From contig QXXX01000020.1 in NCBI GenBank assembly GCA_009887195.1, positions 1-37,549 on the forward strand: a DNA stretch of 37,549 nucleotides, given 5' to 3'. The position numbers and the translations under genes are program-made. The notes beneath the pieces were generated by a model. It saw only the letters and a list, made by a program, of their open reading frames with translations. It did no database searches and was not told the DNA's origin. Shown here in pieces: positions 8,897 through 12,864 of this stretch; the first letter of the stretch is position 1, and each line of letters opens with the position of its first letter. The DNA comes from Candidatus Poseidoniales archaeon. GTDB lineage: Archaea; Thermoplasmatota; Poseidoniia; Poseidoniales; Poseidoniaceae.

Positions 8897-10672
8897 TCAT
8901 TTGGTGAAGTAAACTTGGAAATCGTCTTGCCAATCAATACCAGTAGTCTCAAACCATTGTTTGGAGTTATCATATGAATTCTCTAAGCCCTTCCGCTTTA
9001 GTTTAGCACGCTGACTTATTAATTTCCAAGCGGTTTTACTACCTATCCCTGGTATTGCTGATAGTTGCTTTTCAGTGATATTATCGTGGTTAAGACCGAT
9101 TTCCATACCGGTAATAGATCTGGCTCCGTGACCAGTGACCAATATGTCTGATGATGATTCTAATGGTATGAGGTATTCAGTGCCAATGAGGATTGGATAA
9201 GCCCCTATCTGTCGGCCAAAGGTAATTCCTGCTTTACCATGGCAACCCAAGTCAGTGTGCTCAGGGCCTAAGTGTGCAGGCAGTCTTGTCCGACCACCGT
9301 GAGATTCCCAATGAACAGAACGTAATATTTGCCCTAGTGGGAATAATTGTTGCAGTAACGGTTTGTCGATTTCATTGCGAACTTGTTGCTTGAAATCATT
9401 GAATTCTTGTTGTGGTATTTCTTGGAAGCCTTCCCCTTCAACTTGCCTTATGTTGATTCTTCTAAGCAGTAAATTTTCGTTTCGCAACTCCTGTAATAAG
9501 GCGAAGTTTTTGTGATAAGTTTGTTTAGTTTCACCATTAAGTCCAGCAATGAAATTTAGCCCAGGCAATAACTTTGGCAAGCCTCTAGAACCACGTGTTG
9601 CACCATATTTATTGATCAGGCGGATGGCGGTTTTCAACTGATTGGGATCGCAGTTTAGCCAATTTGCTTCGTGTACTGCAGTATCTGCTGATTCAAGACC
9701 AAACGATAACACAGCACCATCAGATAAAGTCGCCACCAAAGTTTTGGTGATCTCCTCAGAAGGTTCTAGGTTTTCAGCAATAATCGAGGGGTTTCCGTTA
9801 TCGGTATGGAGGATTTCTAACCGTTCGTCATTGCGTAAGCCATGCAATAGTTTGGCTATTGGCTCAGGATTAGGTATGGGATATTCCAGTTCTTTTACTC
9901 CCTCGGCCATGTAGGTGTAGGTGTCAGTCATGCCGCCTAATCTCACGTGTTTTACTCCAAGGTCATGAGCTAGCTTAACCTCCTGAATAATATCTTCAGG
10001 GCTACGCCAAATTGGTACGCCTTTCTTCGGCTCGATACAGAACTTACAACCACGCTTGTATCGAACACATCCTTGGTAGACTTCTACTTCAAAGGTTAGT
10101 GGTCCTGGATTGGTTTCACTACCTAAATCAGGATGGAATTTAACCGCCTTACTTTGAGCACCTAAGTGAGCCCATTTAGTCCACTGTTCTGCGTCTCTGC
10201 GCATGTGTTTCCAAGCACCATTAGTAAGGTAATTATCTAATGTAGCGTCGGTATCTTGAACTGCTAAAAATAAATTTTTGCGCAATGGATTCCAACCTTG
10301 TTGCCGCCATCCTCTGATTGCCCAGCCGCCAAGGATTGCCGGGATTTCACTGGGTAAAGTACGAACAACTTCTTTCATTTCTCGAACTGAAATAGGTGTG
10401 CCTCGAAGGTACTTTCCGGGAACCACCGCACCGGCAATGCAAGCAAAACCATCCAACCTAGTCATCAAAGTTTCAATGCCTGATTCGCCTTGTTCTCTGA
10501 CAAGTTCACGCCATTGATCTATAGTCATATATTGGTACTCGATATTGTGCTGCTCTAATACTCCGCACAGGTAACGAATGTGGAATCCAACATATGGAGG
10601 GACGCCAAAAGCCGCTGGCTCATCTTCATAACCATCGAGAACTAACCATTTAGGTGATTGGTGCTCGACCAT
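8897..10672 (-). CDS. Radical SAM Fe-S protein with C-terminal helix-hairpin-helix (COG1031-like)
   Basis: 591 aa. EVYQGCVRYKRGCKFCIEPKKG cluster motif (CX6CX2C), GVKHVRLGGMTDTYTY, C-terminal HhH LSAIPGIGSKTAWKLISQRA. Confidence 0.8.
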   Translation of the reverse strand: MVEHQSPKWLVLDGYEDEPAAFGVPPYVGFHIRYLCGVLEQHNIEYQYMTIDQWRELVREQGESGIETLMTRLDGFACIAGAVVPGKYLRGTPISVREMKEVVRTLPSEIPAILGGWAIRGWRQQGWNPLRKNLFLAVQDTDATLDNYLTNGAWKHMRRDAEQWTKWAHLGAQSKAVKFHPDLGSETNPGPLTFEVEVYQGCVRYKRGCKFCIEPKKGVPIWRSPEDIIQEVKLAHDLGVKHVRLGGMTDTYTYMAEGVKELEYPIPNPEPIAKLLHGLRNDERLEILHTDNGNPSIIAENLEPSEEITKTLVATLSDGAVLSFGLESADTAVHEANWLNCDPNQLKTAIRLINKYGATRGSRGLPKLLPGLNFIAGLNGETKQTYHKNFALLQELRNENLLLRRINIRQVEGEGFQEIPQQEFNDFKQQVRNEIDKPLLQQLFPLGQILRSVHWESHGGRTRLPAHLGPEHTDLGCHGKAGITFGRQIGAYPILIGTEYLIPLESSSDILVTGHGARSITGMEIGLNHDNITEKQLSAIPGIGSKTAWKLISQRAKLKRKGLENSYDNSKQWFETTGIDWQDDFQVYFTK

Positions 10673-10696: not shown

Positions 10697-12100
10697 TCAA
10701 TCCTTCTTGCTACGAGGTCTAGGCTTACGCTTTTTTCCGTCTTCTTCTTCCTCACGCATGGCGCGTAACTCTCTTGAAGTCTTACCAGGGCTATTGCCAC
10801 CTTTCTTGTCGCCGCCTTTCTTTTGTGACAAGTCAACTCTAATCTTACGTCCAAGTACCTCTGTACCATTCAGTTGTTTGATTATTTCATCGCCCTTGTC
10901 CATCTCTTTGACGGTGATAAAGGCAAATCCTTTGGGTTTGCCACTGTTATCAGAAATGATATTGACATCTACAACAGTTGCATGCTGTTTGAATAGATTA
11001 GTCAGAGTCTTGTCGTCAGCCTTGAATGGTAGATTCCCGACATAGAACTTCAATCCAGCAGGGTCCTTGCGGTTTTCTCGCTTACCCTTCTTGTTGTCAC
11101 TATCTGCATCTCGAACTCCAATTCTTCTTCCGTTAATTCTGTGCCCATCCAATTCTTTGGCAGCAGCATCAGCAGTTGCTTTGTCGCCAAAGGTGACAAA
11201 TCCGAAGCCTCGGTTAGCGCCACCATCATCAGTAGGAACGAAACAATCACTCATTTCACCGAATTTAGAGAATAGATCACGTAATTCATCTGTGCCGATT
11301 TCACGAGGTAGTCCGCCGACGAATAATTTGCACCCAGGCTTGGCCTTCTCACGTCGATTTCCGCCACCAGATTGTTGTCCTTCGAAGCGGAAGTACTCTC
11401 TGTCTCGGCCGTCTTCACGGAAATCTTCAGCAATGAAAGTAGCTCTGCCAGATGGTCCTTTAGCGAACAAATTCTCTGCCTCACTACCCCACCTTTTGCC
11501 TGAATTGTTTAACGAACTAGCGCCTTGATCTAATTGAGCAAATCCTGCGGCGAAATTATCTGCTAATGCTCTGAAAGAACGGTAATTACAGCTCTTACAA
11601 TTGACATTCCAATCGCCTTGAAGCTCAGCAACTAATGTGTCACCACATGATGGGCAAATAGCGTGTAATACGCCACAATCATTGCGTTCACGGAAATCTA
11701 TTCTGACCACAGGAGATACCTCCTTAACAAGGGCACGACAGACATCCCGGCGTCTTACTGCATCAGCAGTTTGGTGCATGTATCTGTCGACCAGTCCGGT
11801 TACATGGAAATGTCCGTACAGGTGCTCTGGTAGTAGACTGCCAGGCTTACCTTCAATGCACAGAATCATGGCTTCACCATTTTTCTCATTGAGTTTTTCG
11901 ACTCGACATATTACAGTGTCACCAACTTCTGGAGTGCAGACTTGCTTTGCAGCAGTAACCGTAGCAATTCCATCAGCGATGAAAAAATTACCAACAGCAG
12001 TCGCTAAGATGCGACCATCTACTTCGATTGTTCCTTCACCAGCCTCACAATCGGAGGTGGTTGATACTTGCATTCCCGGGGTGACGAGGCTCGCCGTCAT
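10697..12100 (-). CDS. Archaeal exosome Csl4-like subunit (S1-type region + zinc ribbon) fused to two RRM domains
   Basis: N-terminal VTPGMQV...GEGTIEVDGRILA...GDTVICRVEKL and zinc ribbon CPSCGDTL-//-CKSCNYRSFRALAD typical of Csl4. RRM1: KLFVGGLP...GGANRGFGFVTFG. RRM2: KFYVGNLP...GKPKGFAFITV. Basic tail KKRKPRPRSKKD. ORF extends to 12142; MTASLVTPGMQV at 12100 is the likely start. Confidence 0.88.
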   Translation of the reverse strand: MTASLVTPGMQVSTTSDCEAGEGTIEVDGRILATAVGNFFIADGIATVTAAKQVCTPEVGDTVICRVEKLNEKNGEAMILCIEGKPGSLLPEHLYGHFHVTGLVDRYMHQTADAVRRRDVCRALVKEVSPVVRIDFRERNDCGVLHAICPSCGDTLVAELQGDWNVNCKSCNYRSFRALADNFAAGFAQLDQGASSLNNSGKRWGSEAENLFAKGPSGRATFIAEDFREDGRDREYFRFEGQQSGGGNRREKAKPGCKLFVGGLPREIGTDELRDLFSKFGEMSDCFVPTDDGGANRGFGFVTFGDKATADAAAKELDGHRINGRRIGVRDADSDNKKGKRENRKDPAGLKFYVGNLPFKADDKTLTNLFKQHATVVDVNIISDNSGKPKGFAFITVKEMDKGDEIIKQLNGTEVLGRKIRVDLSQKKGGDKKGGNSPGKTSRELRAMREEEEDGKKRKPRPRSKKD

Positions 12101-12207
12101 TTTTATCATTCCTAAGCAATTGTGGCCCGGTTTAGGTCGCACAACCTTCGCTTGTGTTGACGGGCGAGTTTATCCCTTTTCAATGCATCATATGAATTTG
12201 ACAAGCG

Positions 12208-12864
12208 TTATTCATCCTCATCAATGATTTTAGCGTCGCCTGGAAGATGAAATCTCCAGCATTTAATTTGGGTTTCGCCCATTTTTCGACTTTGATGAGA
12301 ATACTTTGGTGGTAATCGGAAATTGCTTTCAAAAACGACCTCCCAATCATATCCGTGAGTTTTGGCAATAGCCTTGAGGTGTCCCGCTTGTTGGGAATGG
12401 AGTACATACATTGACTTGGGCTGTAGACTAAACCCATATTCAAGCAATGGACGGTCAGCTCTTGGACTTTGAAACCCCCATGGTGGATTCATTACCACAA
12501 TATCGACTTCCAAATACTCAGGCGCCGCCTCTTGACCAACCATACATTGAACAGTTTCAATAGAGCAATTATGTTTATTCATGACCTTAAGTGAATTTTC
12601 ATTTGCTACAGTCACAACCGCTTGATCTCCTTCTACCAAAACAACATTACTGGCTCCAATCATTGCACAGCCGAGTCCAAGTACGCCATTTCCTGCGCCA
12701 ATATCAACCACGGTTTTCCCTTCTAACAAATCTAATTGATCGATTGCTAAGACAAAGAACGATGCCAAGTCACCTTCTGTGGAATATTGCTCTAGCTCGA
12801 CAGAATGTTGAGGATGTTGTTGTAGTTTGGACAACTCGATGGCCAAATGTTTGGGCCGCAACAT
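12208..12864 (-). CDS. METTL5/COG2263-like RNA N6-adenine methyltransferase
   Basis: 218 aa. LEQYSTEGDLASFFV, VVDIGAGNGVLGLGCAMIGASNVVLVEGD (SAM motif I), IVVMNPPWGFQ (NPPW catalytic motif). Confidence 0.85.
   Translation of the reverse strand: MLRPKHLAIELSKLQQHPQHSVELEQYSTEGDLASFFVLAIDQLDLLEGKTVVDIGAGNGVLGLGCAMIGASNVVLVEGDQAVVTVANENSLKVMNKHNCSIETVQCMVGQEAAPEYLEVDIVVMNPPWGFQSPRADRPLLEYGFSLQPKSMYVLHSQQAGHLKAIAKTHGYDWEVVFESNFRLPPKYSHQSRKMGETQIKCWRFHLPGDAKIIDEDE

Follow-up and report, generated by a model that had tools for sequence, protein, structure and literature searches.

In the archaeal exosome, the selection of substrates is ascribed to Rrp4 and, in Sulfolobus, to the poly(A) preference of DnaG. 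Known archaeal Csl4 proteins, such as those of A. fulgidus (2ba1) and S. solfataricus, are about 180-200 aa long and share an N-terminal domain, an S1 domain and a zinc ribbon with residues 5-183 of the protein described here, which adds an extension of about 58 aa, two RRMs and a basic tail. A related arrangement has been engineered: the RNA-binding N-terminal domain of DnaG was fused to the C-terminus of S. solfataricus Csl4, the rationale being that the N-terminus of Csl4 anchors to the ring (Hou et al., 2014, PMC4227792). The product, Csl4-DnaG(NTD), was incorporated into the exosome of S. solfataricus and bound poly(A); degradation of poly(A) was faster than by the exosome with plain Csl4 (PMC4227792). 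Both proteins carry an RNA-binding domain at the C-terminus of Csl4; however, the one is man-made with a DnaG domain, whereas the Marine Group II (MGII) gene, known from sequence, is natural, has RRMs and occurs beside a separate, retained DnaG. The human NEXT complex includes an RRM cofactor, RBM7, which binds U-rich RNA and guides the exosome to such RNA (PMC4417160, PMC5146272). The likeness, an RRM tied to exosome substrate choice, is an analogy of working and not homology as a whole, and RBM7 differs in being a separate cofactor that works together with MTR4 and ZCCHC8 on an exosome that is not phosphorolytic. Standalone RRM proteins of the Rbp type contain the same domain and occur sporadically, in frames of 80-160 aa, in other Thermoplasmatota and in a sister group within the class. 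In contrast to the MGII protein they are not fused to Csl4, and their RNP1 mostly reads GFGFVEM rather than GFGFVTF/Y. Among the open-access papers searched, none was found to describe a Csl4-RRM fusion, archaeal RRMs or Poseidoniales exosome architecture.

The window, that is, the whole stretch of 37,549 nucleotides analysed, is contig C13 of a 1.70-Mb assembly (G000) that is 80% complete and whose named near relatives are Candidatus Poseidoniaceae / Marine Group II. The csl4-RRM-RRM gene and its parts are listed in Table 1. A preliminary description had called it a single uninterrupted ORF of 468 aa; the frame is indeed uninterrupted, in dozens of assemblies, but it comprises 467 codons and a stop. 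An in-frame upstream GTG could lengthen the ORF to position 12142. This is an unlikely start, because several relatives have a stop codon just 5′ of the same MTAS/MTPS start. The window derives from a metagenome-assembled genome (MAG), and in a few relatives the locus is broken at contig ends or contains runs of N (L053/L054, L055). These facts could point to an artefact of assembly or gene calling in which csl4 was merged with a separate RRM gene. Its probability is negligible: the continuous frame recurs in dozens of independent MAGs and other assemblies, including CM001443, an MG-II chromosome in a single contig, and single-amplified genomes (AG- isolates), and purifying selection at the codon level acts on both sides of the junction, which together rule out a chimera. 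Nei-Gojobori omega, computed against the two closest relatives, amounts to 0.039 and 0.025 in the Csl4 part; the corresponding values in the RRM part are 0.054 and 0.030. At greater distance synonymous sites are saturated. Csl4 and the RRMs are encoded by one gene in relatives as well, and csl4-RRM-RRM is a true single gene and no assembly accident.

Table 1. Features of the csl4-RRM-RRM locus (positions in the window; residues of the 467-aa protein).
Feature	Position	Strand	Basis and remarks
METTL5-like methyltransferase gene, 5′ of csl4	12208..12864	(-)	Named by Pfam methyltransferase matches and position
csl4-RRM-RRM gene	10697..12100	(-)	467 aa and stop; sole Csl4 and sole RRM protein found in the window's genome
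Csl4 core (N-terminal domain, S1, zinc ribbon), residues 5-183	11552..12088	(-)	NF034126, 92.9 bits; 2ba1_A by phmmer and Foldseek
CxxC...CxxC zinc ribbon, residues 149-171	11588..11656	(-)	Four Cys invariant in A1 and A4 alignments
Order-specific extension of about 58 aa, residues 184-241	11378..11551	(-)	LN..G.RWG..AE...GP.GRATFIA.D.REDGR...FRFEG; conserved in Poseidoniaceae
Gly/Arg/Lys linker, residues 242-256	11333..11377	(-)	Low pLDDT; variable in alignment
RRM1, residues 257-331	11108..11332	(-)	PF00076, 76.8 bits; RNP2 LFVGGL, RNP1 RGFGFVTF
Charged inter-RRM linker, residues 332-349	11054..11107	(-)	Low pLDDT at 336-347
RRM2, residues 350-424	10829..11053	(-)	PF00076, 59.8 bits; RNP2 FYVGNL, RNP1 KGFAFITV
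Basic tail, residues 425-467, with short C-terminal motif (S/T)SRELRAMREE	10700..10828	(-)	A1 alignment

The Csl4-type N-terminus that had been proposed is borne out by domain search, by sequence and fold comparison and by a conserved neighbouring gene. The NCBI equivalog model for Csl4 (NF034126; PRK09521) places Csl4 in the N-terminal half, matching from position 2 to 178 of its 180 at 92.9 bits against a cutoff of 90, and A. fulgidus Csl4 (2ba1_A) is the best solved-structure match of this half by sequence (phmmer E 3.7e-12). The AlphaFold model of the whole protein (pLDDT 70.5 on average, and about 80-89 in most of the Csl4 core) likewise finds 2ba1_A at rank 1 of the PDB (Foldseek E 2.5e-15, TM 0.65 by target); ECR1_N scores slightly below the Pfam cutoff. 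The zinc ribbon is present as described, and C149xxC152...C168xxC171 is invariant both in the sampled genus (A1) and in the wider A4 alignment. Its cysteines are lost in one divergent Poseidoniaceae genus, g17, where a Csl4-RRM-RRM protein (L183, genome G256) has broken CxxC pairs (CSNSGEKL...CHTSGTRYF). The Csl4 moiety of MGII is divergent and scores little above the NCBI cutoff, at about 93-108 bits vs 133-166 for those matches of the sister group that exceed it. The genome-wide search of G000 gives csl4-RRM-RRM 95.5 bits. In this genome and in a closed 2.1-Mb relative of the same genus (G074, whose locus matches that of CM001443 in position) it is the only Csl4-family match over the cutoff, the second, weaker match in G000 being Rrp4.

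Both RRMs exceed the gathering cutoff of PF00076 (20.7 bits; whole-protein E 7.9e-38), and all four RNP motifs named in the preliminary description are intact. The model shows the strands and helices of the beta-alpha-beta-beta-alpha-beta fold for each, and after 2ba1_A the Foldseek matches are tandem-RRM proteins, e.g., HuR, Sex-lethal (Sxl) and hnRNP A2/B1. The Csl4 core and both RRMs lie mostly at pLDDT about 75-89; values fall below 50 in the linkers (214-253, 336-347) and over most of the tail. The extension between Csl4 and the RRMs, also mostly of low pLDDT, is conserved within the Poseidoniaceae and has a related motif in the Thalassarchaeaceae: LN..G.RW...AE in the former corresponds to LNR.GERWS.EAE..LGHDGARPYLSP.ADHRRG in the latter, a putative order-specific element of Csl4. 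The basic tail is present, with a net charge of +8 over 43 aa; basal genera have a related SSRE..A.REE motif, and a helix is predicted at 442-455. Eukaryotic tandem RRMs can serve as protein-protein docking modules, and the conserved short C-terminal motif suggests partner binding. The RRMs might therefore contact a partner (helicase, ribosome or DnaG) and not RNA. This is quite improbable, since the RNP2 aromatic and RNP1 positions 3 and 5 are preserved in all complete fused RRMs examined, contrary to most docking RRMs; the check covered 32 RRM1, 40 RRM2 and 47 RRMs from single-RRM or partial proteins.

RRM_1 was surveyed in 390 genomes of Thermoplasmatota, comprising the Poseidoniaceae (MGIIa), the Thalassarchaeaceae (MGIIb), the sister group within the class and others. 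Matches occur in 71 of 72 Poseidoniaceae, 54 of 55 Thalassarchaeaceae and all 8 genomes of the sister group, and in 21 of the 255 remaining genomes; the rarity of RRMs in archaea asserted earlier thus holds within Thermoplasmatota outside the class. The one genome in each of the two families that lacks an RRM match (G359, G043) also lacks a Csl4 match over the cutoff, as is expected of incomplete assemblies. Nearly all Poseidoniaceae have two matches per genome and Thalassarchaeaceae one, and every listed match in these families lies in a frame of at least 230 aa, mostly 420-600. Csl4-RRM-RRM is found at all full-length Poseidoniaceae loci examined, in the genus of the window and several others, including basal ones. 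At the Thalassarchaeaceae loci inspected, Csl4 precedes a zinc finger of the form CxxC-x17-CxxC (TIGR04272/PF23477), a single RRM and a tail rich in RG; this finger, a treble clef, stands where MGIIa has RRM1 (L033-L052). A Thalassarchaeaceae-like csl4-RRM contig (L125) also turns up in a MAG labelled Flavobacteriales, likely by misbinning. In the sister group the RRM is encoded in a frame of 85-105 aa and csl4, where complete, in one of 185-235 aa. The rest of Thermoplasmatota has a plain Csl4 of about 190 aa, with no RRM or a standalone one in frames of 80-160 aa. No other Csl4-RRM fusion was seen in the 255 Thermoplasmatota genomes outside the class, where long Csl4 frames are explained by open frame ahead of the gene or, twice, by RGG tails. 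These two proteins (L220, L221) have long RG/RGG-rich C-terminal tails, apparently an RNA-binding element gained independently at the same terminus. The survey of Csl4 homologues in relatives shows that the Csl4-RRM fusion is conserved across the order Poseidoniales. This breadth, the different version in the sister family and the extension of about 58 aa had no place in the preliminary description.

The gene neighbourhood indicates when the fusion arose. The METTL5-like gene adjoins csl4 at 43 of 44 Poseidoniaceae loci, 37 of 37 Thalassarchaeaceae loci and all 6 loci of the sister group. Because this neighbour is common to the three, fused and plain csl4 are positional orthologues, which dates the fusion to after the split from the sister group. 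Directly downstream of csl4 in the window lies a gene for a radical SAM protein with a C-terminal HhH region (8897-10672). Such a gene follows csl4 directly at 39/44 Poseidoniaceae and 33/37 Thalassarchaeaceae loci, and none was seen beside csl4 at the sister-group loci examined.

The origin of the RRMs is less clear-cut. Solved RRM structures are overwhelmingly eukaryotic, and so are the best PDB matches of these two. Searched alone, RRM2 has as its best NCBIfam model the Rbp RNA-binding regulator (Rbp_regulator), and RRM1 scores about equally with Rbp and with a eukaryotic splicing-factor model. A tree of 76 columns with many open forks and no bacterial RRMs places hnRNP A2/B1 among RRM1 of MGII and the RRMs of Thalassarchaeaceae, with RRM2 of the window apart. 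The label 'eukaryote-like' is thus not specifically supported. In the same 76-column tree the single RRM of MGIIb groups with RRM2 of the basal Poseidoniaceae genus g18 (96/95); the ancestral RRM may thus be the C-terminal one.

The partners of Csl4 are encoded in the same genome. G000 has an Rrp4-Rrp41-Rrp42 operon, preceded by an SBDS-like fragment (identified by sequence reading). It also encodes, besides Rrp41/Rrp42, a bacterial-type RNase PH (L175:947-1771, G000:C45; TIGR01966 240.5 bits, cutoff 141.5); RNase_PH-domain genes number three in 5/5 MGII genomes tested and two in the sister group. DnaG is found in 12 of 12 genomes tested, nine of them from MGII, G000 included, which rules out loss of DnaG as the cause of RRM gain. 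MGII DnaG matches the archaeal model in two pieces, strongly over 1-282 and weakly at the C-terminus (about 26 bits in G000), whereas DnaG of the sister group and of an outgroup matches in one piece; the C-terminal domain has diverged in MGII (L213, G000:C54). In S. solfataricus this domain is required for binding to the Csl4 exosome (PMC4227792). This parallel divergence is suggestive only; the cap may be organised differently in MGII.

One reading of these divergences is that the protein no longer belongs to the exosome and acts as a free RNA-binding protein or chaperone that uses the old S1 and zinc ribbon of Csl4 together with the RRMs. The low Csl4 profile scores of MGII, the altered DnaG, the zinc ribbon lost in g17 and the fact that a homotrimeric Rrp4 cap could do without Csl4 would all fit. 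However, the protein is the only Csl4 of its genome, the exosome operon with Rrp4 is kept, gene order is conserved and purifying selection on the Csl4 region is as strong as on the RRMs, so that departure from the exosome appears unlikely. We consider it probable that the protein is a constitutive Csl4 cap subunit whose RRMs recruit RNA in cis and thereby bias substrate choice. The observations behind this reading are the integrity of the gene, the orthology of its Csl4 part, intact RRMs, order-wide conservation, encoded exosome partners and the status of sole Csl4; from them we infer ring binding, RNA binding and an effect on substrate choice. Of the earlier interpretation, the Csl4-RRM fusion stands, and it is conserved in genomes that encode the exosome core; sequence-selective RNA degradation and a tethered RNA chaperone would be candidate functions, and the eukaryotic character of the RRMs is not specifically supported.

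As a cap subunit, the protein would dock on the Rrp41/Rrp42 ring through its Csl4 N-terminal region, as orthology indicates, with the two canonical RRMs tethered by a flexible linker. The tethered RRMs would bind single-stranded RNA beside the pore, raising substrate affinity and biasing substrate choice, and the 3′ ends of the bound RNA would be fed to the phosphorolytic core. Recruiting and biasing the substrates of the phosphorolytic exosome is therefore proposed as the most likely function. A bolder extension, which we hold only tentatively, is that the RRM-Csl4 cap took RNA selection over from DnaG, the C-terminal domain of which diverged in step. The result would be an exosome that is sequence-selective in cis, a prokaryotic counterpart of eukaryotic RRM-guided targeting, existing as two variants that are each specific to a lineage (RRM-RRM and zinc finger-RRM).

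Apart from the two fused RRMs, no RRM was found in G000 or in its closed relative G074, and the survey suggests that the whole RRM repertoire of most MGII genomes is devoted to the exosome cap. A major group of uncultured surface-ocean archaea would thus have RRMs hard-wired into this cap, an evolutionary parallel to the RRM-containing exosome cofactors of eukaryotes. RNA-binding modules (RRM-RRM, zinc finger-RRM, RGG tails) appear to have been added repeatedly at the C-terminus of Csl4. The fused RRMs probably let the exosome choose its RNA targets, and how an archaeal exosome is told its targets can now be tested with one recombinant protein.
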